Assembly: GCA_013350285.1 (NCBI GenBank)
Contig: JAAXWG010000002.1
Span: forward strand, 262,513-300,609
DNA from: Candidatus Altimarinota bacterium
Lineage (GTDB): Bacteria > Patescibacteriota > Gracilibacteria > BD1-5 > UBA6164
Direction: 5' to 3'
DNA length: 38,097 bases
Both the position numbers and the translations under genes were made by a program. The notes below the pieces were generated by a model that was not told the origin of the DNA, searched no databases, and saw only the letters and a program-made list of their open reading frames with translations. Shown piece by piece: positions 1 through 29,953 of this stretch (position 1 is the stretch's first letter; each line of letters opens with the position of its first letter).

Positions 1-555
1 TTCAATGCTCCTATTGGAAATTGGGACACAAGTAATGTTACCAGTATGGAATATATGTTTGATGCTACTCCTTTTAATCAGGATATCTCTAACTGGAACA
101 CTGCTCAAGTTACCAATATGGCTAGTATGTTTGGTAGTACTCCTTTTAATCAGGATATCTCTAGTTGGAATACTGCTCAGGTTACTGATATGTCTTGAAT
201 GTTTTATGCCTCTCCTTTTAATCAGGATATCTCTAACTGGAACACAAGTAATGTTGTTGCTATGCATGAAATGTTTAGATATAATAATGATTTTAATCAA
301 GATATTTCTAATTGGGATGTAAGTAATGTTAAATACATGTGGGGAATGTTCTTTGATGACACTAACTTTAATCAAGATATTTCTAACTGGAACACAACTA
401 GTGCTGAAAATATGGGATATATGTTTTACTATGCTGATAGTTTTAATCAAGATTTAAGTTCTTGGAATGTTTGTAATGTTACTGACTATGAAAACTTTAC
501 AGAAGGTGCTTATTCTTGGATTCTTCCAAAACCAATATTTGGGACTTGTTGATAA
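1..555 (+). CDS. DUF285/BspA-type surface repeat protein, 3' part
   Basis: The gene enters from outside the window, so its start is missing. It is made of tandem repeats of about 25 residues with the core [13 protein letters not shown] followed by an M..MF motif, which is the DUF285 (BspA-like, Mycoplasma lipoprotein-type) surface repeat. Seven copies are visible. One in-frame TGA (196-198) falls in the repeat motif MSGMF, where glycine is usual. The repeat array ends with the common closing motif W-LPKP-F and then TGA-TAA at 550-555. Such repeats are known from exported, cell-surface adhesin-like proteins; the partner here is unknown. The following 430 bases look like a frameshifted continuation, so the true protein may once have been longer. 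Repeat family is clear; function is inferred. Confidence 0.85.
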
Positions 556-1084: not shown

Positions 1085-3646
1085 ATGAAAAACAAAAATA
1101 AAAAATTAGCTTTCACATTTGTGGAACTTATTATTACTTCTGTCATAATTATAATTATTTCTACTATTGGATTTTATAGTTATTCAAAACATATAGGTAA
1201 CTCTAAAGATTCTGAAAGAGTATCAAATATGGTAAATCTTTCATCTTGATTAAAAGATTACAAACAAAATAAATGAATTTATCCCCTTCCTTCAGATTAT
1301 TTCACACTCACAAACTCTTGAACAGAGTTAGTAAAACAAGGAAAAATAGATAAATCATTTTCTTTGGCAAGTTTAAATAAAATTCCATTTGATCCAAGTA
1401 CTGATAATCCTTACTTATATTGAATAACTCTAAATAAGGAAGAATATCAAATTGCATCAACCCTTGAAAATAATTGAACTCCTATTGCTTTAGTAGAATG
1501 AGATTATAAAAGTGTATCAAAAAATATTCTGCCAAGTTTACTTATTGCTTACAATGGAACCGGAAATATAGATATAAGTAAAGAACCTTTCAAAAATAAA
1601 TTTATCCTCAATTGATTTCCTTATAATCTTCCCTACAATCTTGAAAATGGAACTCCTTTTAGTGCATCCTGAGTTGTTTTGTCTTCAATTTTAATAGAAC
1701 AAGATGAGAAAATATGGCAAAATATAGATTATAAAAGTTGTGAAGAAATATGTAATGCAGGAAAAAGCTTAGGTGATGGTGAATACCAAATCCTTACTAA
1801 TACTTGAGGACTCATAAATATAATTTGTGATTTTGATGAAGGATGAAGTTGTGAAAATGAAAGTACACTATCAGCAAATTTTTGTGTAAATCCTAAGCCT
1901 ACAAATGCTAATATTAATGTAGGAATACCAACTATGTCTAATCAATCTTGGCAAAATACAAATCCAAATAATCCTTGCTATTTTACTTGTAAAGCACATT
2001 ATACTTGGAATGGAATAAATTGTATAGCAGATACCCAAATATTTACTTGTTGAGCAAAACCAGAAAATACCTCTTGGAATAGTATAAATTCTTATACTCA
2101 AACTTGGGATGGATCTAACTGGATGCCTTCTGATAGTGAAAGCATTTATAGTACTACTACTACAACTAGTTGTCATTATGTTTGTTCAAGTTGATACTCT
2201 TGGGATGGAAGTAATTGTATAGTTTCTGGAACACTTATTTCTTGACCTTGTACTAATCTTCCTAGTAATACTCTTTATTACAATAATTCTTCTAATTATT
2301 CTCTTGTTGATGCTCCTACTTGAACCTCTCTTGATGCTCTATCTGCTTGATATTCTTCATCTCCTGATGATAATACTTGTCAATTTAAATGTAATTCTTG
2401 ATATTCTTGGAATGGAAGCAATTGTGAATTAGATACCCCTGATGAAATAAAAGAAATTTTTGCAGATGAAAGTGAATATAGTAATAATTGGAATAATAAT
2501 ACTTGTAGTCCTGATACAATGAATGTTATAAATATTCTTCCTTGAACTAATACAATTCCTAATACACTTAATGAAAATACAATATATAAACTCATAAATT
2601 GAAATTATATAACTACAAATCCAATTGAAATTTGATGAGATTGTGTATGACTTATAGGTGAAGAAAATACTATAATTTATAGTAATTCTCAATTAGAAAA
2701 TGGTGTAATAACTGCCTATTGAAGAGAAAATTCTATTATATCTAATATTAGTGTAGATAATGAATCAAACTGAGCTTGATGAAATCATGATAAAAATCGT
2801 CTTTGAACTTATTTTGAAGGATTAAGAAATAGTACTTTTAAAAACATTAAAATATACAATTCTTATTACAAATGAATTCGGTTACACGATGTAGATATTT
2901 CAACATTTGAAAATTTACAAATTTATAACAGTGGTGATTATTGAATTTTCTTTAGAGATTCAGACAAGAATACATTCAATAATATTCAAACTTATAATAA
3001 TCAGGGATTATGAATATGAAATGATGGAGGAGAATTTAATACTTTCAATAACATTCAAAGCTATAATAATAATTATTGACTTATCCTTCATGGATTACAA
3101 AATAGTATAATAAGTAATGTACATGCCTATAATAATTATTATACTGGAATAGATTTTGCTTGGTCAAACAATAATAGTATAAATAATACTTATATTTATA
3201 ACAATTATGTTGGAGTGAATATATCTGAATCTTACAATAATAAATATTATGGTGATATAAAAATGTTTTGAAATGATTATATTGCAGTATGAACAGATGG
3301 AAATGATAGCTTTTTAAGTTCTTGAAATTCTTCTGAAAACATCCCAAGTAATGCTCAACTTTGATCAAGTCTTGATTTTTGAAATGGTGCTATTATAACA
3401 CTATGACTATCTGTCACATGTAATTATCATAGTAATCCAAATATAGTTATCTCATGGGGAATAAACTGTTTAGATAGAGGAAGAAAAACAAGTGGATTAA
3501 CAACTCCTGTTACAAACTATCTTTATGGAAATGATATACTAAAACAAAATCAACCAATTAAATATAACATTTCAAATTCTTTATTTGAAAAATATTGAAG
3601 CAATTGAAATGAATATGATACCAATAAATATATAGGTGAATTTTAA
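1085..3646 (+). CDS. Prepilin-like protein fused to Cys-rich repeats and a beta-helix (853 aa)
   Basis: The N-terminus (about residues 8-35) is a type IV prepilin helix: LAFTFVELIITSV, with the conserved Glu at +5 and Ala rather than Gly at the -1 cleavage position. A globular pilin-like part follows (residues 36-260, homologous to the protein at 3797). Next come Cys-rich units of the type C-x-SGYSWNGSNC (about residues 290-460), in which TGA fills the glycine position of SGYSW. A low-complexity Asn/Tyr-rich stretch (about 560-760; FNNIQSYNNN, NNTYIYNN) then looks like a right-handed parallel beta-helix of the NosD/PbH1 kind. The tail IVISWGINC...GEF matches the fragment at 777-986. Ordinary pilins have 130-250 residues, so this is a very long one, probably a tip adhesin or minor pilin displayed by the pilus. 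The role is inferred. No Shine-Dalgarno is visible. Confidence 0.82.
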
Positions 3647-3796: not shown

Positions 3797-4543
3797 ATGA
3801 AGAAACAAAAAACTGCATTTACTTTTGTAGAGCTTATCATAACATCTGTAATAATTATAATGCTTTCTACCCTTGGTTTTTTTAGTTATTCAAAACATAT
3901 AAGTACATCAAGAGATGCTGAAAGAATGGCTCATCTATGAAACATAAATTCTTCTCTCAATCTCTATAAACAAAAAAAATGAGCTTACCCTCTTCCTTGA
4001 GATAATTTTAGTTTTACTAATTTATGATTAGAAATAGTAAAACAAGGGAAAATGAATGAAAAAATGAGCCTTTCTACTCTTGATTCTCTTCCTCTTGACC
4101 CATACCTTCATATCCCCTATATTTATTCTATTACTCAAAATAGGCAAGAATTCCAAATATGAACAAGTCTTGAAAATAATTGAAACTCAATTGCTTTATT
4201 ATATTGAAGCTATAAAACTGTAGCAAAAAATATTCTTCCAAGTATTATGATTGCTCATAATGGAAGTGGAAGTGTGGAAATTACAGATAACTCATATAAA
4301 AATAAATTTATTGTTGATGGAACAAGGCACAATCTTCCTTATAATCTTGAGAATTGAATTCCTTTTAGTGATGGAATAGGTTTTTCTTGAGTTATAGATG
4401 ATATAAATACAAGAATTCCTCAAAATAGAGATTTTGAAAATTGTAATGAGATATATGAGGCTGGGAAAAGTATAGGAAATGGAGAATATCAGATTCTTAA
4501 TTCTAGCTGAAGTCTTGATAATATTAGCTGTATTTTCCCTTAA
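3797..4543 (+). CDS. Prepilin-like protein, short paralogue (248 aa)
   Basis: The N-terminal KTAFTFVELIITSV and hydrophobic stretch to about residue 30 match the type IV prepilin class, again with Ala at -1 and Glu at +5. The rest aligns along its length with residues 1-260 of the protein at 1085 (shared SYSKHI, DAER/DSER, KNILPS, NGEYQIL) and then stops at TAA. It therefore looks like the pilin module alone, without the Cys-rich and beta-helix extension. About a dozen TGA codons lie in frame and are read as Gly. Likely a minor pilin or pseudopilin. ATG 3797 is chosen because it places the usual short basic leader (MKKQK) before the cleavage site. Confidence 0.82.
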
Positions 4544-5440: not shown

Positions 5441-6670
5441 ATGGAACAGGATAAAAATGTGATTATACAGTCTATGCAAATAAAAAAAGATGTCTGAGAT
5501 ATTGTAGAATATGTCAATTGGATTTTTAAGTCTGCTATAGAACAAAGAGCATCAGATATCCATATAGAACCTACTGAATTTTTTCTTATGGTTCGTTTTC
5601 GTCAAGATGGTGATTTTCTCATTATTGATAAACTAGATAGAGAAAATATATCAAGCATTGTTACAAGATTAAAAGTACTTGCAAAAATAAAAATAGATGA
5701 AAATAAAAAACCTCAAGATGGAAAAATAACTTATTATTATGAAGTAGAAAATAAAAATATAGATATAAGGCTTTCTACCCTTCCAACAAGTTATTGAGAA
5801 AAGGTGGTAATGAGAATTTTGAAACCAGATGCAACTCTTACTAATATCACAAAACTTGGGCTTATTGATGTAAACTTGGAAAAAGTAAGAGAGGCTCTCA
5901 AAAGTAAATATGGTATTATGCTTGTTGCTTGACCAACAGGATCTTGAAAATCAACAACTCTTTTTTGAATACTTAAAAATTTTAATCCTCTTGATTACAA
6001 TATATCAACCCTTGAAGATCCAATAGAGTATGCAATAGAATATGTAAACCAATCTCAAGTAAAACCAGATATTTGATATACCTTTGCAACAGGACTGAGA
6101 AGTCTCGTAAGGCAAGACCCTGATATTATAATGGTTTGAGAAATAAGAGATAAAGAAACGGCAACTCTTGCGGTAGAAGCAGCACTTACCTGACATCTTG
6201 TACTTTCTACTATCCATACAAATAGTGCAACTGGAACTGTACAAAGGCTTATCAATATGGGAGTAGAACCTTTCTTGCTTTCTAGTGCGATGAAGATGGT
6301 AATCAGTCAAAGGCTTGCAAAAAGAATGTGTCCTTTTTGTAAAAAAGAAAAAGTACTAAGTGAACAAGTAAGAAAAAAAGTAGAAGGATTTTTGAAACCT
6401 ATTATGGAAGAAGAAGAATTAAAAAACCTCGTTTTTTATGAAGGAGCTTGATGTGAGAAATGTAATAATTCATGATATAAGTGAAGAATGTGAATTCATG
6501 AAGTTCTCATAGTAGGAGATTATCTCGAATCTATGATACTTGAAAGAAGAAGTGCAAATGAAATGGCTGAAAAAGCTATAGAACATTGAATGATAACTAT
6601 TGTTCAAGATGGTCTTATAAAAGCAGCTCTCTGAGAAACAACCGTTGAAGAAGCACTTAAACTTATATAA
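5441..6670 (+). CDS. pilB: Type IV pilus assembly ATPase PilB (GspE/VirB11 family), 409 aa
   Basis: Cytoplasmic hexameric motor that powers pilus extension. Walker [10 protein letters not shown] is at residues 164-172, with its first and third glycines encoded by TGA. The Asp box follows (EDPIEY), then Walker B IIMVGEIRD (about 229-237) and the His box [12 protein letters not shown]. The C-terminal zinc knuckle typical of PilB/GspE rather than PilT is present: CPFC at 297-300 and C338-x2-C341. The protein begins right at the ASDIHIEP domain (residues 33-40), so the N-terminal MshEN/N1 domain of usual PilB proteins (about 560 aa) is missing. A TATAAA box lies at 5407-5412. A phosphatase and pilC follow in the same direction. 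Confidence 0.96.
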
Positions 6671-6691: not shown

Positions 6692-9600
6692 ATGTTATTT
6701 AAGAAAAAAGAAAAAATAATTCCCAAAAAAGATATTACCATTAATAAAGAAATAATTAATGAGTCTATTATAAAAGATAATAATAGTAAAAAAGTAAAAA
6801 AGAAAGAAGAATCTAAAGTTCCCCTTCAAGAAAAAATAAAAAAAGAAGATATATTAATAGAAAAAATGGAAAATATAAACTCATTAGATAATCATAAAGT
6901 TTTACTAGAAACAAAAAATGAAACTAATAATAAAATTATAGAAGAAATAGAAAAAAATGTTGAAAATAAAAATGATAAAGACATAAAAAAATTAAAAAAG
7001 AAAAAAGAACTTGATACAAAAAAAGTAAAAGACTTTCATGATGTAGTAAAAGCTATTAATATATATATTTCTGAAAAAGATTGGGAAAAAGCTTATAAGG
7101 CAATAGAGGAAATAAGAAAAAAAGAAAAAAAGTCTCTTAATATACTAATAAATGGAATAGAAAATAATAACAAAAAATTAGATCTGAAAAAAAGATTTGA
7201 AAAAAATACTCTTATTATAAATAAACTTGAAGAAAAAATAAAAAAAGAAGAAAAAAAATACAATACTAAAATATCTTGAGAAAATTTTATATTAAAAATA
7301 AAAAATATAATTCCTTTTTTTTCAAAGATTCATAAACAGCAAGACTCTACTAGTCTTACATCAAAAATTCCATCAAATTATAATAAAGATAATTACAATA
7401 ATATTGTTACAAATAATGAAGCACCATTACAACAAAATAATATTGTTATAAATAATGAAAATATCATAAAAGTTGAGAAAAATGAGCAGGAACTTATTCT
7501 TCCAATTTCTGAATTAAAACCAATAAATGATATTAATAATGAATGAATAGAAGAAATTAAAAAAGAAGAATTGAAAGATAATACTCAAGATTCTTTAATT
7601 AATAAAGAGTTATTATTGAAAGAAGAAGAGAAGAAACAAGTTGAAATAATAAAAGAAGGTGTGATATGAAAAATATCAATTAGTCAAATGAAAAAAAATG
7701 ATGAAATACAAGAAAAAAATGAAACAGAAGAACAAAATAAAATAATAGAAGAACAAAAAATAGAAGATGAAAAAATAGAAGAAGAAAGAAAAAATGTTCT
7801 CATGGAAGAAAAAGAAGAAAATGATAAAATTTGAAATGATAAAAATAAAAAAAATTTAAAAAAGAAAAAAGAGCTTGATACAAAAAAAGTAAAAGACTTC
7901 CATGATGCAATAAATGCTATTGATATATATATTTTTACAGAAGATTGGGAAAAGGCTCATAAAGCAATAGATGAAATAAGACAAAAAGAAGAAGAGGCTC
8001 TTAATATATTTGTAAGAGCAATAGAAGATTCTAATAAAAAAAGAGAGGAAAAAAGGAGATTTGAAAAAAATGCTTTTATTATAAGTAAGCTTGAAGTAAA
8101 ACTTAAAGAAAAAGAACAAAAGTATAATGATAAAATATCTTGAGAAAGGTTTAAGCTTAAATTTAAAAAAATAAAAGAAGAAATTACACTTCTTTCAAAA
8201 ACTCATAGAAATCAAGAAGCTCTCAATCTCCTTTCAAATTTTCTTGAGGACAACAAGGATAAATATGTTGTTATACAATTTTACAACAAAGAAAAAAGAT
8301 CTATTCAAAGAGCAATAGAAAAAGATAGGATAAGAGAAGAAGTAAATGCGAAAAAAAATACTAAAAACGAAGCATTGAAACTTATTTGACAAACGATGAA
8401 TTTGGAAGAATGACAAGAACAAATAGAAGGTGGAGAAAATAAAGAATGACAAGAAAATAAATTCAAAAAAATATTTAATTTTTATAAAATAATACTTGAG
8501 AAAAAAAGAAAAAGAAAGCTTATAGATGAAGTAACTTCCCTTATAGAATCTCAAAATCAAGCAGAAATGGATATAGCAAAAAGTAAGCTTGAAAAAGTTC
8601 ACCAAGGTCTTATAAAAGAGCTTATGGTAAATAATATCAGAGGATATGAATTTTTTTGAAAAATACTTGGAGCAGATAAAATATCATGAGATACTTTTTG
8701 ATTTTTGGATGATAAAACAAAATATAATTTCTTTCTTTGAGATGCAACAGGACATTGAGTAAAGGCAGGACTTATTGTATCACTCCTTAATAGATTATTT
8801 AATAAATATTCTGTATGAAATCCTTTAAGAAAAATTGTATTTAATATTAATAATTGACTTAAACAAGATCTACAAAGTAGAAATTTTATAACTTGAATAT
8901 TTTTTGAAATAGAGAAAGAACATCCTCAAATAATACAATATGTTGGTATGGGACATGAGCCTATGTTTATATATAAGTCAAAAGAAAAAAGGGTTGAAAA
9001 ACTTATTCCATGAGGACTTGCATCTTGAATTAGAATAATTAAAGAAGAAGATGATGTTAGGATAAAAGATATTGAATTGGAAAATGAAGATATGCTTATT
9101 TGTTTTAGTGATGGTATTGTAGAAGCAAGAAATATGAGCTCTGAGCTTTATTGATTTGAAAAACTTGAAATATGTATACAAAAAAATTGAGAAGGATCAA
9201 ATATTACAAAACTTTATAATGCTATTATTGATGATGTAAAGTCTTTTAAATGATGAGCTAAATTTGAGGATGATGCAACTGTTATTATTTTAAAAAGAAA
9301 TGAATTAAAGGATATTATACAAGAAAAAGATAATTATCTTCAAGAAGTTGCTTCAAGGGAATGACTTTCTAATAAGACTGTTAAAAAAATGATATGAAAA
9401 ACAAAAGAACAACTTGAAGCAGAAATTGAAAAAATAAAAAAAGAAAAACAATTGTTAAATATCATAAAAGTACTTGAATGATATTATTATACCTGAGAAA
9501 TACTTATGCTCAAACAAGAAGCAATAAGATTTATCAAAGAATGATTCATTCATCCTAAAATAAATAAATATCTCAAACTTGCAATAGCAAATGAGACAAA

Positions 9601-9733
9601 ATATAAAGTAGAACAAAAAAATAAGAAAATAGAAAGTAAATATAATGTATTGAAAGAACTTATGAAAAAATGAGATTATATGACCGTTATAAAAGAATGT
9701 AATGAGATTATAGCAAAAGATGGAAATATATAA
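6692..9733 (+). CDS. Coiled-coil protein with C-terminal SpoIIE-type PP2C phosphatase domain (1013 aa)
   Basis: A 645-residue Lys/Glu/Asn-rich, largely coiled-coil region precedes a PPM/SpoIIE-type Ser/Thr phosphatase domain at about 645-867. The domain keeps the full metal-binding set: SGDTF (about 665), GDATGHGVKAG, GMGHEP, CFSDGIVEA and EDDATV (about 860). A module of about 95 residues starting DTKKVKDFHD occurs twice, near residues 108-200 and 396-490. It carries DWEKA-KAI-EIR, which resembles a TPR-like helical hairpin. A third helical region closes the protein (about 900-1013). Several glycines of the active-site loops are TGA. SpoIIE phosphatases usually dephosphorylate anti-sigma antagonists or partner proteins; no STAS substrate is seen here. 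The gene sits 21 bases after pilB and 25 before pilC, so control of pilus assembly is a reasonable guess. The start is the first ATG after pilB. Confidence 0.88.
7013..7291 (+). repeat. Intragenic duplicated module, copy 1
   Basis: Encodes about 93 residues from DTKKVKDFHDVVKAI to KISGENF. It matches copy 2 at 7877-8155 over its whole length with many substitutions, which points to an old duplication within the phosphatase gene. Confidence 0.8.
7877..8155 (+). repeat. Intragenic duplicated module, copy 2
   Basis: Encodes DTKKVKDFHDAINAI to KISGERF. The shared anchors are DWEKA, KAI-EIR-KE, RFEKN and ISGE; TGA encodes Gly in the last motif of both copies. Confidence 0.8.
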
Positions 9734-9758: not shown

Positions 9759-10976
9759 ATGCTTACTTGAGCTTTTTACGACAAATACTGAAACTTTGAT
9801 AATACAAAATTTCTCAAACTTCTTGAGGAAGCAAGAAAGATGCAAATAAAATCCCAATTAAAAAGTTGAGGATCCTCTTTTGGAAAAGAAATTTCTCTCT
9901 TTAATAAGGTTTCTAAAAAAGAACTTCGGCAATTTATAAATAAACTTTCTATCTTCATTAATTCTTGAATTGATATTAAATGAGCCTTAAGTATCCTTGT
10001 AAAACAGGTTAAAAACCCTTTTATGAAAAAGATAGCAACAGAAATAAAAAATAATATTGATCATGGTATAGGAATAAATGAAACAATGAGACAATATCCA
10101 AAAGTATTTGATGGATTAACTGTTTCTCTTATAGATGTAGGAGAAAAAACTTGAAAACTTGGAAAAATACTTGCAGAACTTGATGATAATCTTTTAGAAA
10201 GTATAGAATTAAAAGGAAAAGTAAAGTGAGCAATGATTTACCCTGTAATTCTTCTTAGTCTTACCCTCCTCATGGTAGTTGGTATGATGACATTTATTGT
10301 TCCAAAAGTAACAGAATCATTTAAAAAAACAGGAACAGCTCTCCCATGACCAACTCAAATTATTGTAAATATATCAGATTTTTTTATTGCAAAATGGTAT
10401 GTTATTATTATTTCTATCTTTATAACTATTATTTCTGTTAAAATTATTTGAAAAACTTATATAGGAAAAATTTCTTTTGCTAAATTATTTGTTAATATGC
10501 CTATATTTTGATATGTTGTAAAACAATCAAATATCGTTTATTTCATCAAATCTTTTACCATACTTCTTGATTCCTGAGTTCTTTTACTTGATTCTCTAAA
10601 AACTGCAAGTACTGTAGTACCAAATATGCTTTATAAAAAAGAGCTTGTAAGAATAAAAAATGAAGTGGAAGTGTGACTAACTATATCAAAATCCCTTGGT
10701 CTTAATCTTGATTATGAAGAATGAGTATATCTCAATAAGCTTTTTTCAGAAGAATTTGCTTATGTTATAAGTACTTGAGAAGAAACATGAACACTCTCAG
10801 ATTCTCTTAAAAAAATAGGAGGAAATTACAATGGAGAACTAAAAAGGTATATTGGAAATATGTCGAGTATGATGGAGCCTATTATCATTGTTATTGTTGG
10901 TGTACTTGTTGGTAGTATTATCATTGCAGTTATGCTTCCTTTCTTTGAAATGGGAAGTATTGCAAAGAAAATGTAA
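9759..10976 (+). CDS. pilC: Type IV pilus inner-membrane platform protein PilC (405 aa)
   Basis: Polytopic GspF/PilC protein with two copies of the T2SSF domain (about residues 60-185 and 260-390). The first has the family pattern LSIFINSGIDIKGALSIL, then GEKTGKLGKIL. The second has LLDSGVLLLDSLKTAS, then STGEETGTLSDSL. Hydrophobic helices lie near residues 155-185, 205-235 and 365-395 (EPIIIVIVGVLVGSIIIAVM), as expected. The length matches usual PilC (about 400 aa). It anchors the PilB/PilT motors and the assembling pilin. It closes the pilB-phosphatase-pilC run and is followed by a strong terminator. Many glycines are TGA. Confidence 0.95.
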
Positions 10977-11014: not shown

Positions 11015-11854
11015 TTAAAATTCACTCAAATCTATTTGAGAAGTTAATGTAAATATTTTATTTATTTTCTTTCATTCTTTATAAACCTCTTTAAAATTTC
11101 AAGATTCTTTTTTAAAAAATTTATATAATATCATTAATTCACTTATATTAATAGAAAGATTGACTATATTAGTATCATCATTTTCTAATTGTTTATTTCA
11201 TCAAAAAGCTATATTTTCCAATTTTATTTTTGACAATCAATTACATTCAAGCTTTGCTCTTTCTTTTATAATATTTTCTTCATCATATGTTCATGGAATA
11301 ATTGAATTTTTAATCCCTTCAATACATAAAATTTCCATTTCATTAAGACTTACTCAAGTATTGGTATCTGTTTTTTTAAAATCAAAATATTTTTCATCTC
11401 CCGTAATTTTTCTTTTTTCTCATTTTCAAAAATAAAGTAATTTAAAAATATCTTTTACTGTTTGCTTATTTTTTTCACTATCCAAAAAATATATATCCAG
11501 ATTCATATCTGAAGCCTCTCAATGCCTTAATCTTTGTCATAAAAATAATAATGGATAACTTTTTACTGAATCAAGATTCGTTTGTAATGTATTACAAATA
11601 TCCTCTTTAGAACTCTTACATTCTATACTAAAATCATTTGGATAAACATATACTTGATAATAATCATATTCTTTCAATTTTTCTTCTTGCCCTTTTTCTA
11701 TACTTATAGAATTTTTCATTTTTATTTCTTCTATTTTACTTTCTACATCATCAATAAATAAAAAATAAAAACTAATAAACACTATAATAACAAAGATTAT
11801 TATCATAGTAAACTTCTTTTTATTAAGAGAATATAATTCAAAAAAATAAAACAT
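11015..11854 (-). CDS. Membrane-anchored protein of unknown function (279 aa)
   Basis: I do not recognise the family. A basic N-terminus (LNKKKF) precedes one transmembrane helix at about residues 16-33 (MIIIFVIIVFISFYFLFI). The remaining 245 residues are polar and form an outer domain with three or four scattered Cys. TGA is read through about nine times, as in YFGNGE-like stretches. It starts 26 bases after the stop of the giant prepilin and is probably co-transcribed with it. That placement and the single N-terminal helix suggest a pilus-associated or pseudopilin-like partner, but no prepilin cleavage motif is visible. Function unknown. Confidence 0.75.
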
Positions 11855-11880: not shown

Positions 11881-14800
11881 TTACTGTATAATAAATCCAT
11901 CTGAAACAGCTGTAGGAGAAGATATGCTTTCATTATAACTTTGTACTCTCCATTCATAAGTAGTATTGTTGTTCAAACTAAAATTCCTATTTGCTTTTAT
12001 ACAACTTGCATCTGTTACATCAGCAGATACAATACAAGCAGATGTTTGGCTTCCTATATCAATTCTATCAAAAACTATAGATTTATGTGTTTTATTATAA
12101 AGCTGTACAAAATAACCCATTGTTTCAGGAACGGATGAAAAACTTAATCAAACTTTTTTAACTTCTGATTGAGAATCAATATCAGATCCATAATTTACAC
12201 CATCTCTTACCATTGATGGTGGATTAATTCTTGAACTTGCTATTTGGTATACATATCCATCTTCTGCTGAAACTATTATATCTAATAATTTATCATCATT
12301 TGTGTCTCAAAAAATCATTCTTTTTATAGCAGAACCAATATTATAAGCCTTTATTATATTTCAATTTAATCAAATAATATATATATATCCATCTCCTCAT
12401 CAAACAAGTACCTGAATACTTCCATCTTGAATAAAGTCTCCTAAAAGAACATCTGCTGTAGGAAGAGGTATTAAATTATTATTTAAAATTTCTTGAGCAT
12501 TTGCATATTTTCTAGCATTTAAATAATAATTATTAAAATTATTTGTTATATTTGTTCCATTCCAAGATTTAAGAGAAACCTGTCAATCAAGTCATCTAAA
12601 AGCAACATATGTTTTGTTATTAAATCTATGAAATGAAGGAATTCATCAACTTATTCAAAAAGTAGAAATTACATCTCATGGAATATTTACAAGACTTGAA
12701 AGCTGAATTTTATTTGAAGAATTTACTTTCATAACTCCTGCATTATTTGTTCCTCTTATAACCTCTTTTTTTCAATCTCCATCAAAATCAAAAGCTACAA
12801 GAGCTATTTCTTCACTATATGGTGACATCTGATTTCATTCAGTAACAACTCATCAACTTATTGATAATACTCTTGTTGCTCTTGCATCAGTTCAAGGAAT
12901 AAGCTCATCAATACCATCTCCATCAAAATCTTCAGAAACATTAGAATGACTATTTCATCCGTCACAATATCCATTTCAATTTCACCGATCTAAGTCAGGA
13001 ACTATCTGACTTCCATCTACTCAACTTCTTATTGTATAAAAAAGATGATTAGGCCATGTAGCTGTAGAAGTACAATATGACCGAGCTATATCAAATACTC
13101 AATCTCAATTCAAATCTCAAACCCATCATGTAGAATTGTATTTCAAGCTATAACTTCAAGGAGCATTAAATGTATAGGCTTTTCATCATATAAATACCTC
13201 ATTATATCAATCTAAATCCATATCATAAGAAAAAAAGAAATCATTATTTAGCTTAATAGGAGGAGATCAAGGATAAGAACTTCTCGCATCAAACATTCCT
13301 ATTCAGCTTATCATCAATTTATTATACCTAGATTCTCATAATCATAATTTAGATATAACCAAATCTTTTACTTCCCCTCAAGAATAAAAATTATCTGATG
13401 TTATTTTTGTAAAATTATAATTTCCTAAAGATGCTTTCGTTCTATAATAATTAATAGTATTTGTTGTTAGATTATAAGATAGAGCATACATATCATTATT
13501 ATCTTCTGTCAATCCCCATTTTATACAAGAAGGAACTCAACTTGTTGGTCAAAACTGTTTTACAAAAGTTACTCCTGTATCCTCTACTTCATAAAATTTA
13601 AAGTACCCTCCATCCGAAACTACAAATTCTTTCTTTCCATTTCCATTTGTATCATAGGATGCAAGAAACACTCAAGCATTTTTATTTCTTTCTCTTCTTA
13701 TATCATATCCTCCATCAAATAAAGTATTTCCAAAAAAAGAACCTCTCACTTTTAATGAACTTGATGTCAAAAAAGTATTTATTCCATTAAAAGTATAAAA
13801 ATAATACTCTCATCATTTGAGTAATACAACATAATCTTTTATTCCATTGCTATAAATTCCTGCCAGTGTATAACTTGTATCAAAAGCATTATATGCTAGT
13901 TCATAATTAAAAGATTCATTTTCAGTAGATGTTTTTTTATATCAAGAATCTAAAGATCATTTATATTTTAAGAGAAGCCATTTATTAACTAAATCAACAG
14001 GATCTCTTCCATAAGAAAGTATATAAGAATCTTCAGGATTTGTCTGATTTCTAAGAGCTATAGGAATAGAAAAATTTCCATAAGAAGTAAGTCAAGAGGC
14101 TCCTACAACTCTTGGATTTGATAAAGACATATATTGAACCATTACTCAAGAAGTATTGAGTCAAGCAACTCATAAACGAGAAAGTTTATTATTATTTAAT
14201 TCTTCATCAATTCTATAAATATACTCATCATTTCAATCATTATTAATATCATAAAAATACCCTATTCAACTATTCCGTCAATTTCAACTATTTCCTCAAA
14301 CAAATATTTTTCAGAAAGCAGGCATTTTGTATTTGAGGTTTCATGAAAGACTCGGATTTACATCATTAGAATAAAAAGCAAAGGTATGTGATCATTTTGT
14401 TCAAATAACTAATTTTGAAGCTATATTTCCCATAGCCCATTGTTGTGGTTGATATCCATCACTTCATTCATTATAATCTCCATATCATTGAGAAGACCAA
14501 AGTGTTTCCCCTATTACCTTTCCTGATGAGTTAAAGAAACGAAAAGAATTATATTTATTATACCATTGTTTAAAATGATATTCATTTATACCATCTCCAT
14601 TTACATCAAAAACTTTATAATCTATTGTTGGCCATCAAGGTTTTACTGTCTTTACTGGTCAAGATGCAGAATTTGAAATCCGCTCTAAATCTCCATTTGC
14701 TCAATTGATAACTCCAATATACCAATCATTTCATAAAGCAACTATAATTGATTTTACACCATTTCACAAAATATTTTCTATTCACAAAATAGCCCTAATA

Positions 14801-16071
14801 TCTAAAACTTTTGTTTCCCAAATATTTCCTCAAGTAATAGTATCTCATAAATATATTTTTCCCCCATATCAATATATAATATTTTCATTTCCATCTCCAT
14901 TAACATCAAATCCTCCATAATATATCAATGGTGATTTATTTGTAGTAAAAAGTCTCCATTTTACTCAAATAGACTTATTAAGTGCTCCTGACATTCCCAT
15001 ACTATTTCTATGATGATCAGCGGTTCAAACTCACTGTCATCTTGATCATACATCTCAAAAGGGCCACTGTCATACATAATTTGTTTCTCCATTTGGAAGT
15101 AATGCTCAAGTATCAACATCTCAAAAAATAATATCAGAAACTTCATCCCCTCAATCACATTCAATTTCAAGTATGTTTACTACTTTTTTTGTAAGAGCAC
15201 AAGAATATTTTATAAAATCAAGTGTAGGATTATATATATCTGCATATACAAGGGAAAAATCAATATAATCCTCTTGTCATTCTAAGGTTGATTGATTATA
15301 TCTATCACTTAACTTTTTATAAAAACCAAGTCTTGTATCTTGATTTTTTAAATCTTGAAAATTTCAAATAAAAAGTTCATTATCTTCATCTGTAAATACA
15401 GCAAGTCATTCATAAAAATCAAAAACTTTTGATAAATTTGAATTATTTATATTATAAGAACTTGGTAAATTTTGATATCAATTATATGCTAATTTTTTAT
15501 TTCCTATTATATCAAAAAAATCTGTTTCTGATGCATCTGAAGTTATTATACTTGGACTACTTAATATATAATCTTTCCCTCAAGTAGATGTTAATAATGC
15601 TTTTGCATTATAAGTTCCTACAATAGCGGTTCTTAATCAATTTGTTCAAAAGCTTGCATTTAAAAATGAAAAACCTCAATTTTCTACTGCAAAACCTATC
15701 TGATATTCCAATAAATTTGTTAGTACTGAATAAGTATATTCATTTTTTGTAAGAGGATCAAGAGGAACCTCATTTATTCTTCATGCTATTGCTCTTGTTT
15801 GTTCTCAAAAGGTTCATTCTTTCCATATAGTTGCTCAAGTAAATATTATATCTCTAGGATTTGTTGGGAGAGGAAAAAATGATTTTTCTGTTTTAAAAAG
15901 TTCTAAATTTTTTTTTATATTATTTATATCAGAAGTTCTTACTGAATCTCTCGCATTTTTACCATATCATTGAATACTTGTAAAAGCTATAGCTCAAAGA
16001 ATAGTTAAAATAACTATGGTAACTATAAGCTCTACCAAAGTAAATCAAATTTTATCTTTAGAACTTTTCAT
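11881..16071 (-). CDS. Giant prepilin fused to FG-GAP/VCBS-like repeats and a C-terminal Fn3-like domain (1396 aa)
   Basis: Residues 9-32 are a classical prepilin signal: IG|FTLVELIVTIVIL, with the cleavage Gly (codon at 16047-16045) encoded by TGA and Glu at +5. After a pilin-like part (to about residue 280), a long region carries repeated Asp/Gly calcium-type motifs such as FDVNGDGN, DVNGDGINEY, DINNDGNDE and DFDGDGIDE. These are characteristic of FG-GAP/VCBS beta-propeller repeats (integrin-alpha-like adhesins). The last 95 residues (TYEWRVQSYN) resemble a fibronectin type III fold. I checked the frame line by line: it has no TAA or TAG before 11881. ATG 16071 is preceded by AAGGGG at a short distance, the only convincing Shine-Dalgarno in the window. 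Likely a pilus-displayed adhesin; ligand unknown. Confidence 0.87.
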
Positions 16072-16241: not shown

Positions 16242-16803
16242 AAAAGTCTAGCAAACAAACTATAATTTCCTTGATTTTTCCCTACTATTCCTATACAATG
16301 TAACTTGTCTGTTTTTACAGATTTTATATTTATATTCTAATTTTTTTAGAAATGAAAAATTTAAAAAGGTGATTTACATTAGTGGAACTTATCGTAGTTA
16401 TCACTATCCTTGCAATTCTCTGAAGTATTGCTTTTATCTCTCTCCAAGGATACTCTTCTGATGCAAGAAACTCTAAAAGAACAAGTGATCTTGGTTCTTT
16501 AGAAAGTGCTATGAGTACTCAACTTGCTGAAGGGCAAAGCATTCTTTCTTTTGCATCTTGAACTACTGCAAACCAACTTACTACTCCCTCTATAGCAGGA
16601 AGTAATAGTACTACTGCTGATTACAATGCTGGAACTGTTAATTATTCTGCTCTTCCTGTAAAATCTACTGATTTTCAAGATCCAAGTGGAAATGCTTCTT
16701 ATGTAGTAGGAGTAACAACAAGAAAAGATGGAAAACATGAACTTGCTGCAAGTATGGAGCAAGGAGCTGGATCTAAAGTTGCAAAAGTTATTGGTGATTA
16801 TTC
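16242..16803 (+). repeat. Direct repeat copy A: pilin promoter, leader and first 150 codons
   Basis: The stretch from AAAAGTCTAGCAAACAAA through the promoter, leader and pilin codons up to GDYS recurs 937 bases downstream with constant spacing (no indels). Divergence is concentrated in the promoter spacer, and becomes strong after this point in the C-terminal third of the gene. Confidence 0.9.
16271..16299 (+). promoter_or_regulatory. Promoter of pilin gene 1
   Basis: TTGATT (16271-16276), a 17-base spacer and TACAAT (16294-16299). Both hexamers and the spacing are conserved in the second pilin promoter, although the spacer sequence differs, which supports function. The leader contains a TCTGT-TTTT-ACAGA hairpin shared by both genes. 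Confidence 0.8.
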
Positions 16804-17107
16804 CGCAAGAACAAATGCTACTATAGCTATAGGAACTGGTTCTAATCTTAGTGTTGTAACAATAACAAATAATACTGATATCAATAAATTCTTTACTGCT
16901 GATACAGTAATATCAGATGGTACTGGACCAACAGCAAGAACTATCTCAAAAATATCTTCTGACGGTAAAACTATTACTCTTAGTGGTAATGTTCCTACTA
17001 ATGCAACAACTCTAGCTCTTAGTGCTACTGAAAGTGGAGGACTTATTGATGCAGGAGGAACTTCAGCTTGAATAGTTACTGATGGTTGAGTTAATCTTCC
17101 TTACTAA
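16352..17107 (+). CDS. Type IV pilin 1 (251 aa)
   Basis: Leader MKNLKRG, cleavage before FTLVELIVVITILAILGSIAF, then the usual alpha-1 helix and globular domain. This is a textbook major-pilin N-terminus. The cleavage glycine (16370-16372) is TGA. Residues 30-150 (RNSKRTSDL, AGSNSTTADYNAG, VVGVTTRKDGKHE, GDYS) are nearly identical to the next gene. Residues 150-251 differ more, but keep NTDINK-F-ADTV and DGKT-TLSG and end in NLPY. A promoter and terminator of its own suggest a monocistronic, highly expressed gene. It is the polymer subunit candidate for the PilB/PilC/PilT machine. TAA stop. Confidence 0.95.
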
Positions 17108-17178: not shown

Positions 17179-17740
17179 AAAAGTCTAGCAAACAAATTAT
17201 AATTTCCTTGATTTTTTTGATTAGTTCGTGTACAATGCGGCCTATCTGTTTTTACAGATTTTATATTTATATTCTAATTTTTTTAGAAATGAAAAATTTG
17301 AAAAGATGATTTACATTAGTGGAACTTATCGTGGTTATCACTATTCTTGCAATTCTCTGAAGTATTGCTTTTATCTCTCTCCAAGGATATTCTTCTGATG
17401 CAAGAAACTCTAAAAGAACCAGTGATCTTGGTTCTATAGAAAGTGCTATAAGTACTCAACTTGCTGAAGGACAAGCTATTCTTTCTTTTGTTTCTTGATC
17501 TGCTGTAAACCAACTTACTACTCCCTCTATAGCAGGAAGTAATAGTACTACTGCTGATTACAATGCTGGAACTGTTAATTATTCTGCTCTTCCTGTAAAA
17601 TCTACTGATTTTCAAGATCCAAGTGGAAATGCTTCTTATGTAATGTGAGTAACAACTAGAAAAAATGGAAAACATGAACTTGCTGCAAGTATGGAGCAAG
17701 GAGCTGGATCTAAAGTTGCAAAAGTTATTGGTGATTATTC
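17179..17740 (+). repeat. Direct repeat copy B: pilin promoter, leader and first 150 codons
   Basis: Second copy of the 16242-16803 unit at an exact offset of 937 bases. At one glycine codon copy A has GGA and copy B TGA (VVGVTT/VMGVTT), a direct synonymous exchange under code 25. Confidence 0.9.
17208..17236 (+). promoter_or_regulatory. Promoter of pilin gene 2
   Basis: TTGATT (17208-17213), 17-base spacer, TACAAT (17231-17236). It is followed by the shared leader with the hairpin ATCTGT-TTTT-ACAGAT. Confidence 0.8.
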
Positions 17741-18050
17741 ACAAAGAACAGTGGCTGCAGCTACCGTTGCTGTAACATTAGGAGATGCTACTCTTAAAAC
17801 TGTTAATGTTACAAGTAATACTGATATAAATAAACTTTTCCCAGCGGATACTGTTACATTAAATGCTAACACATACACTATTGCAAAAATAAGCACTGAT
17901 GGTAAGACTCTTACTCTTAGTGGTTCTGTAGCTCCTGCTTCTGGTAATGTTGCTCTTTCTGTTCAAGAGATTGGAGGACTTATTGATGAAAAAGCTTCTG
18001 GTGGTGGTACTACTCCAGTTACTGATGGTGGTACAAACCTTCCTTACTAG
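17289..18050 (+). CDS. Type IV pilin 2 (253 aa)
   Basis: Near-duplicate of pilin 1: leader MKNLKRG, TGA-encoded cleavage Gly at 17307-17309, FTLVELIVVITILAILGSIAF, and almost identical residues to about 150. The C-terminal domain has diverged (NTDINKLFPADTV, STDGKTLTLSG, a GGGTTPVTDGG linker, NLPY end). Stop is TAG. Its own promoter and a terminator flank it. The two genes could encode alternative major subunits or a major and a minor pilin; sequence alone does not decide. Confidence 0.95.
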
Positions 18051-18168: not shown

Positions 18169-19248
18169 TTAAATAGAATCTTTTATAAATTTATGATTAT
18201 TGGCATATTTATATCCTTCCTCTTCGGTGATAAATCCTTGTTTTATATATCTTACTATATCTGTTTCTAGAAGTTGCATTCCTTCTCTTGATGACATCTG
18301 TAATACCGAAGGAATTTGATGAAGATCATTTTCTCTTATGAGGTTTGCTATTGCTCCATTTTTTATAAGAATTTCTTTTGCCATCATTACTCCTGTTCCA
18401 TCTCTTGTTACAAGAAGTCTTTGAGAAAATACAGCAACTAAAGCATCAGATAGCTGTAATCTTATTTGATTTTGCTCAGCTGCATCAAATGTATCCACTA
18501 TTCTTGATATCGTTTGTATAGCACTTCTCGTATGGAGAGTAGAAAGCACAAGATGTCCTGTCTCTGCAAGAGTCATCGCCATTTCCATCTCTTTTTTTGT
18601 TCTCATTTCTCAAAAAAGTATAACTTGTGGATTTTGTCTCATTGCTCCAGCAAGAGCTATCTCATAATTTGGAACATCTTTTCCTACTTCTTTTTGTTCT
18701 ATGATAGATTCTTTGTGCTCATGAAGATATTCTACTGGATCTTCTATCGTAATAATATGTTTTCTATAATTTTCATTGATATAGTTTACCATAGCGGCTA
18801 GTGTCGTACTTTTTCCTGATCCTGTCGGTCCAGTAACAAGAATAAGTCCTTGTCAAAATTTTGTTACCTCTTTGTATATATCAGTAAGTCAAAGCTCTTC
18901 AAGATTTGGAATATAAGCATTAAGAAGTCTTAATACAACCATATAATTCGCCATCTGGAAAGAAATATTACACCTAAACCTTCTATCTCAAAAAGAAAAG
19001 GCAAAATCAAGATTTTGTTCTTTAAGAAGAAAATTATGTTGATTTTGTGTCATAAGAGATTCTGCAAATTCTAAAGTATCTTGGGGATTTAGTTTTTCGA
19101 TTCCTTCATCTACACTTACAATTTGTCCTCCTATCTTTATTGATGGAAAAGTTCAAACAGTGATATACATATCGCTTCCTTCAGAATCTATCATTACTTG
19201 TAAAAGTTGATCTCTTATAACATGTTCAGGTCTTATTGCATCTTTCAT
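18169..19248 (-). CDS. pilT: Twitching motility/retraction ATPase PilT (359 aa)
   Basis: GspE-superfamily motor of the PilT branch. Walker [10 protein letters not shown] is at about residues 140-148, here with glycines as GGA rather than TGA. The Asp box follows ([10 protein letters not shown]), then Walker [15 protein letters not shown] and the His box [14 protein letters not shown]. The C-terminus contains the PilT hallmark around AIANLIRE and a QMSSREGMQ-like stretch. It lacks the Cys-x2-Cys knuckle seen in PilB. The length is close to the usual 345-370. It drives pilus depolymerisation and retraction. It faces the pilin genes and has only about five TGA codons, fewer than its neighbours. 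Confidence 0.96.
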
Positions 19249-28753: not shown

Positions 28754-29953
28754 ATGAAGTATTTAGTTAATATAACAAATCTCCTTGTTGTTATAATTCT
28801 TCTCCTCAATGTTGTATTTATTTATTTTTGATGAGACTCTATTCTTGGAAGTCAAGGAATAGAAAAATATTCTATTCCAAGTCTTATTTTTATCATAGAA
28901 GCTCTTCTTATAATTTCTATAATAAAAATAGTGTATGAAAAACCTATCATTGATTTAGAATATACTATTAAAAAATTTCTTTATGGAAAAATAAAAGCAT
29001 GACCTATAGAAATAGAAAAGTCTGTAAATCCTCATCTTAATTATATTATCTTATTTTTTACAAATACTCTCACAACTCTCAAAAATATAAAGGATGAGTT
29101 TATTCACGGAAAAGAAATAAAATCAGAAGTAGAACTCGGAAAAGAAATTCAGTCAAAACTCCTTGAGAAAAAACTAGGCTCTATCCCTTCTCTCAATGTT
29201 GTTGCAAAATCAAAACCAGCATGAGAAATAGGATGAGATAGTTATGATGTGATTCAAGAGTGAGATAACTATTATGTGTATGTATGAGATGCAACAGGGC
29301 ATTGAGTTGGAGCTTGATTTATTATGATGATGGTAAATGCTCTTATCTCTTGATTTTCAAAAATCTATGAATCATGAGCAAAAATTCTTGCTGAAACAAA
29401 TGAGGTTTTGAAACCAAGAGTAAAAGCAAATCTTTTGATGACTATGCTTCTTATTAGATGGAATGAAAAAGAAAAAAGACTTTTTATGACAGGAGCTGGG
29501 CATGAAAATCTTATCGTATACAAGCATAAACTCAATAAATGCTTTAAAATAAAATCTTGATGAGTTGCACTTGGTATGATAAAGGATATTTCTAAACTAC
29601 TCAAAGAGCAAGAAATAAAATTTGAAATAAATGATATTCTTGTACTTTATAGTGATGGAATAACAGAAGCTATTAATCAGGGGAAAAAAGATGGAAATGA
29701 ACAAAGGTTTTGAGAAGAAAGACTTGTATCAGCAATACAAAATGCTCCAAATATATATGGGAAAGATTATAAAAGTACTTCTAATGTATTTAACAATATT
29801 AGTATAGAACTTTCAAAATTTATGGGATACAACCATATTCAAATGGATGACATCACTCTTGTCGTGGCTCATTATAGAGGAGAAGAATATAATATAAATG
29901 AGGATAAAGAAACTCCTCTTGCTGAGGATTTTATTACAGAATGGAAATGGTAA
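28754..29953 (+). CDS. Membrane-bound SpoIIE-type PP2C phosphatase (399 aa)
   Basis: Two transmembrane helices (about residues 8-27 and 42-64) are followed by a linker and the RsbU/SpoIIE-type phosphatase domain (about 130-385). Conserved elements: GKEIQSKLL (the typical linker helix of RsbU-like enzymes), GEIGGDSYDV, GDATGHGVGAG, TGAGHENL, YSDGITEA and MDDITLVV, so the metal-binding aspartates are intact. These enzymes dephosphorylate Ser/Thr residues, often on STAS-domain antagonists; no such partner is in the window. The VirB4-like ATPase follows in the same direction after 116 bases. It is a second phosphatase of the same family as the one in the pilus operon. TGA encodes several active-site glycines. 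Confidence 0.92.

Follow-up and report, generated by a model that had tools for sequence, protein, structure and literature searches.

The window analyzed here, a 38,097-nucleotide stretch from a Candidatus Altimarinota bacterium (assembly GCA_013350285.1, contig JAAXWG010000002.1, positions 262,513 to 300,609), carries on its minus strand (11881-16071) a frame that under genetic code 25 (TGA = Gly) specifies a modular prepilin of 1396 residues. With a probability of about 0.62, we interpret the product as a giant type IV pilin of modular build, whose head is a beta-propeller of the calcium-binding type and which forms, together with the partner gene next to it, an exchangeable cassette. The best reading is that of a swappable, probably tip-borne adhesin that would presumably bind a ligand, the partner acting in assembly or docking. 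In plain terms, the window pilin probably works like the tip of a grappling hook that holds on to other cells. The elements on which this interpretation rests are as follows.

11881..16071, minus strand: modular prepilin, 1396 residues, code 25; two other genera contain full-length orthologs, and a third ortholog is contig-cut
16045..16071, minus strand: class III leader MKSSKDKIG (residues 1-9), expected cleavage before Phe10, Glu at +5 (from the sequence, with N_methyl over residues 9-30)
15682..16044, minus strand: pilin module (residues 10-130), GspG/Geopilin-like by profile and PDB matches
15247..15681, minus strand: second carrier region (residues 131-275), common to paralogs bearing other heads
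14932..15246, minus strand: linker (residues 276-380), 49-51% identical to orthologs over 276-370
12223..14931, minus strand: FG-GAP-like, likely beta-propeller array (residues 381-1283, about 900 residues), from motifs, conservation and PDB profile matches to propellers
11884..12222, minus strand: C-terminal domain (residues 1284-1396) with invariant Cys1346 and Cys1357, recognized by conservation and Fn3-like by eye only
11015..11854, minus strand: partner gene, 279 residues, 26 bp downstream of the pilin gene, with one N-terminal transmembrane segment, four invariant cysteines and no prepilin motif

Under the standard code the frame is closed, whereas code 25 leaves it open, with TGA encoding 90 of its 159 glycines. 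TGA also occupies the conserved glycine of the FtsZ GGGTGTG signature, and the TGA columns of the prepilin hold glycine in the three orthologs at 65/90, 60/89 and 36/45 positions; both observations support the use of code 25 by the organism. Genomes G032 and G010 each have a full-length ortholog (55% identical), and G024 has a contig-cut one; the prepilin-propeller fusion is therefore real. The preliminary description, which had been made from the sequence alone, gave the coordinates and length correctly and missed the strand; the evidence supports its central proposal of a single chain that joins a prepilin to a propeller-type head. Relative to the two full-length orthologs, conservation reaches 54-63% in the propeller head but 40-50% in the pilin/carrier region, which indicates selection on the head. 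In the carrier tree, the window pilin (P0001) groups with that of G032 (97/88), and G010 lies in the same open fork, a topology consistent with inheritance of the fusion as a unit. The search across relatives that had been proposed found the prepilin-FG-GAP combination and showed it to be rare: among 77 genomes of the order, four encode the head (E ≤ 1e-10). A separate phylum sample of 379 genomes returned, besides the own genome, only short, weak FG-GAP-like matches. Of two scans of genome contigs, the first gave nothing and the second one ortholog (L079, a Candidatus Gracilibacteria metagenome-assembled genome) along with distant FG-GAP proteins; no homologs of the prepilin were found in viral contigs and phages.

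At the N-terminus, the sequence MKSSKDKIG^FTLVE, followed by a hydrophobic helix, has the form of a class III signal, and the Pfam N_methyl profile scores 26.6 bits (cut-off 21.2), which bears out the canonical leader described earlier. The GspG profile spans residues 9-116 (E 1.8e-8), and the best PDB match is Geopilin (E 3e-9). This GspG-like module (9-116) is followed by an extra module that is not specific to pili, the FG-GAP region, which is the architecture of a modular pilin. The second carrier region (131-275) is shared with paralogs, two other prepilins of the same genome matching at about 40% along a stretch of some 270 residues. In a phylum sample of 361 genomes, matches outside the own genome mostly end near residue 132, which indicates that the pilin part is general and widespread in the phylum and that the second carrier region is local.

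The head contains eight strict calcium-type motifs (D.[DN].[DN]G; residues 389, 489, 608, 807, 950, 986, 1048 and 1095), compared with a mean of 0.28 and a maximum of 3 in 1000 shuffled sequences. Degenerate copies lie at about residues 433, 740, 905, 1212 and 1256; a repeat profile built from the motifs recovers the same eight and a few degenerate ones, and orthologs keep most of the strict ones. Both full-length orthologs exceed the Pfam FG-GAP_3 cut-off of 26.9 bits (37.9 and 37.4). Furthermore, PDB profile searches matched the BBS2 propeller (E 4.6e-5 across about 180 positions) and the designed propeller v31Bagel8 (E 4e-8, summed over repeats). Residues 381-1283 thus likely form a propeller. 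The integrin-like FG-GAP repeats with many DxNGDG-type motifs reported in the preliminary description hold up as to motif content, without fixing the number of blades. Its "Fn3-like end" corresponds to a conserved domain of 113 residues, 50-52% identical to orthologs; the Fn3 label, a resemblance by eye, found no match in Pfam or PDB profiles.

The partner gene, overlooked in the preliminary description, lies directly 3' of the pilin gene in all four genomes with the propeller head. Its profile matches exactly these four of the 77, once each, and in 361 phylum genomes it gave just two matches, both partial and weak. Two unrelated 4-in-77 sets would coincide with a probability of 1 in 1.35 million, a figure that kinship and linkage make an overstatement. 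Because the partner is always adjacent while the genes on either side of the pair differ among G000, G032 and G010, we regard pilin and partner as a two-gene cassette. A SarA-like identity for the partner (PDB, E 0.003) was rejected as chance similarity over 50 residues. Tentatively, the pair may be an adhesion cassette, in which a propeller-headed pilin is accompanied by a private chaperone or dock that loads the tip into a shared pilus machine, with which an episymbiont could swap its host-recognition heads. Alternatively, the partner could merely be a tightly linked neighbor that hitch-hikes in a mobile cassette and has an unrelated function. Such hitch-hiking fits the few independent cases (four genomes, three genera) and the differing wider flanks expected of a moving cassette; however, the pair has been kept across about 45-50% pilin divergence, and a solitary copy of either gene occurs in 0 of 77 genomes, so we hold it to be rather unlikely.

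The genes surrounding the cassette include pilus machinery and further prepilins.

1085..3646, plus strand: modular prepilin with a beta-helix head, 853 residues (Beta_helix 3.2e-11)
3797..4543, plus strand: related prepilin, 248 residues (profile searches and carrier match)
5441..6670, plus strand: PilB/GspE-type assembly ATPase (TIGR02533, E 6e-142)
9759..10976, plus strand: PilC/GspF-type platform protein (TIGR02120, E 1e-73)
16352..17107, plus strand: divergent neighboring prepilin, 251 residues (N_methyl, E 1.2e-8)
17289..18050, plus strand: second neighboring prepilin, a near copy of the one at 16352 (sequence and N_methyl search)
18169..19248, minus strand: PilT-type retraction ATPase (TIGR01420, 396.7 bits against a cut-off of 319.1)

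Additionally, the genome contains elsewhere a prepilin peptidase gene (A24_N_bact and Peptidase_A24 matches). With this gene and those for PilB, PilC and PilT in one genome, processing and assembly of the prepilin are possible. Cleavage, assembly and retraction would follow the type IV pilus pathway. The protein would be exported to the membrane and cleaved after Gly9 by the genome's own peptidase, as its motif and that gene suggest. The pilin helix would then be taken up by PilB and PilC, with the subunit most likely at the pilus tip, since the head comprises about 1100 residues, an argument also made for modular pilins in general (PMC8179133). Ca2+ and disulfides would stiffen the head, which may bind a ligand on another cell or surface, after which PilT retraction would pull the bacterium in; for both binding and retraction, TM7x PilX2 (PMC12206443) and Streptococcus sanguinis PilB offer the analogy. 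The single-pass membrane partner might help to fold, hold or dock the head prior to pilus assembly, a role suggested by its exclusive co-occurrence alone.

The processed protein might instead stay in the membrane as an anchored surface receptor or a pseudopilin-like scaffold for secreted proteins, with the partner as co-receptor. The very large head, the exclusive single-pass membrane partner and the GspG-like profile are compatible with such a role, as is the fact that no other pilus genes were recognized beside the cassette in G032 and G010. On the other hand, the window gene stands among pilB, pilC, pilT and other prepilins and encodes a canonical leader, and pili are known elsewhere to incorporate large modular pilins (PMC8179133). 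We consider a membrane-bound receptor or scaffold improbable on balance, while giving it some weight.

Several findings weigh against our interpretation of a pilus-borne propeller adhesin. The strict motifs are irregularly spaced, 36-199 residues apart, as if only some blades bore the calcium loop, and this spacing does not fix a blade number. The window prepilin itself scores 26.6 bits with FG-GAP_3, slightly below the cut-off. AlphaFold models settle neither fold nor blade count: for residues 300-1396 (two alignment rows) the predicted local distance difference test score (pLDDT) was 30, and for residues 930-1290 (five alignment rows) it was 48.5, which is low confidence. Moreover, the partner belongs to no family recognizable in Pfam and PDB profile searches, and no PilN match was found in the genome. 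Head binding, tip location and even expression are predictions. In favor of a propeller, the low-confidence 930-1290 model is nearly all-beta, and most of its top Foldseek and VIA matches are propellers, the best reaching Z 12.0 at a root-mean-square deviation of 7.3 Å, with designed propellers among the best; the alignment behind it included other FG-GAP proteins, and the folding made no use of the ortholog loci from the genome search. As the AlphaFold models are poor, the propeller fold rests on the profile matches and the all-β topology. The structure prediction suggested earlier as a check has thus yielded a weak model that resembles propellers and no blade count.

Beta-propellers are functionally diverse, and Bap1, a biofilm matrix protein, is one of the propellers matched by the low-confidence model. 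The head could therefore be a pilus-tip enzyme or a binder of a polymer (e.g., polysaccharide or matrix) used for nutrient or biofilm attachment instead of adhesion to host cells. Profile searches found no catalytic family, however, and the precedent from the same phylum is host binding (PMC12206443), which makes an enzyme or polymer binder quite unlikely. That the fusion is an artefact of assembly or gene prediction, as a frame closed under the standard code might suggest, is scarcely credible, given a frame open with code 25, glycine kept at most TGA columns, and full-length orthologs on independent contigs that already contradict it.

The 1.28-Mb genome encodes at least 25 prepilin-like genes, counted from a merged N_methyl list (17) and carrier list (19). 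Among 34 scanned members of the carrier family, the heads comprise Fibrinogen_C (8), DUF285/LRR, LamG, RCC1, Reg_prop, beta-helix and Gly-rich types. RCC1 and Reg_prop propellers occur on the same carrier in genomes of family f1 (e.g., L024 and L036), so propeller heads appear to have been acquired more than once. The prepilins at 16352-17107 and 17289-18050 (plus strand) are nearly the same in their N-terminal halves but differ in their C-terminal parts, the pattern of a recent tandem duplication with head divergence, to judge from the sequences. Positions 1..555 of the window (plus strand) and L075 7407-11068 cover the C-terminal end of a prepilin that has a DUF285/LRR head and near-identical tandem repeats; a frameshift in this prepilin at the window's left edge was rejected, as a run of N (a scaffold gap) mimics it. 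Gp10_C (phage-baseplate) proteins adjoin modular prepilins at two genome sites (L075 5443-6501 and L078 4983-5768, both minus strand), and one of the two also bears a Gp34 tail-fiber trimerization domain; tail-fiber-like tips lie near pilin genes. Between pilB and pilC (6692-9733, plus strand) lies a gene whose 1013-residue product has a phosphatase-like region, weakly matching RssB, and a similar phosphatase-like protein is encoded at 28754-29953.

Little is known about the way in which ultrasmall Patescibacteria select their hosts and hold on to them. The set of at least 25 prepilin-like genes, some with very different heads on a common carrier and one head being tied to an exclusive partner, provides concrete, testable candidates for host-recognition determinants and suggest that host range could change through the exchange of pilin heads.

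Modular pilins number more than 1,200 proteins in 264 architectures (PMC8179133). The closest known counterpart is TM7x PilX2 of Saccharibacteria, likewise a patescibacterial pilin with a C-terminal beta-propeller; when it was deleted, the share of host cells bound fell from about 10.6% to 4.6%, so that it is needed for full binding (PMC12206443). PilX2 carries a single RCC1-type seven-bladed propeller, whereas the head described here is FG-GAP-like and spans about 900 residues; no PilD signal is predicted there, in contrast to the canonical leader here, and the exclusive partner gene belongs to the window prepilin. In S. sanguinis PilB and PilC, a pilin module is also fused to a functional adhesive module, and PilB is a metal-dependent adhesin (PMC8179133, PMC9934059); those proteins are much smaller, bear vWA and lectin modules, and PilC pairs with a pilin, PilA, rather than with a non-pilin membrane protein. 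The PilY1/PilC tip adhesins likewise present a beta-propeller at the type IV pilus tip (PMC7541494), but they are soluble non-pilins with a type I signal peptide, whereas the window protein has a class III leader and unites propeller and pilin in one chain; no PilC/PilY1 Pfam match (PilY1 propeller domain, IPR008707) was listed for it at E ≤ 1. With integrin alpha, BBS2 and other FG-GAP propellers it shares DxNxDG calcium-type loops and profile similarity, although it is bacterial and pilin-fused. Other FG-GAP proteins of the same family have FG-GAP_3 repeats over the cut-off, but their visible N-termini are of lipoprotein/signal or membrane type and have no prepilin leader. Further ones belong to a giant protein of about 3.8k residues, represented by one of about 3,850 residues at L073 311-11875 (minus strand; G000:C8), and most of the family's genomes have paired FG-GAP matches with this giant-protein pattern.

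A literature search turned up no publication that links "type IV pilin" to "FG-GAP repeat"; it did not cover the architecture list of PMC8179133, in which an earlier listing is possible. The preliminary description had called a pilin combined with a propeller adhesin unusual, which is too broad in view of PilX2, the 264 architectures and the RCC1 and Reg_prop pilins of the family, and apt for the FG-GAP version, found in 4 of 77 genomes. The general design is known; the giant FG-GAP-type head and its exclusive partner are, to our knowledge, described here for the first time.
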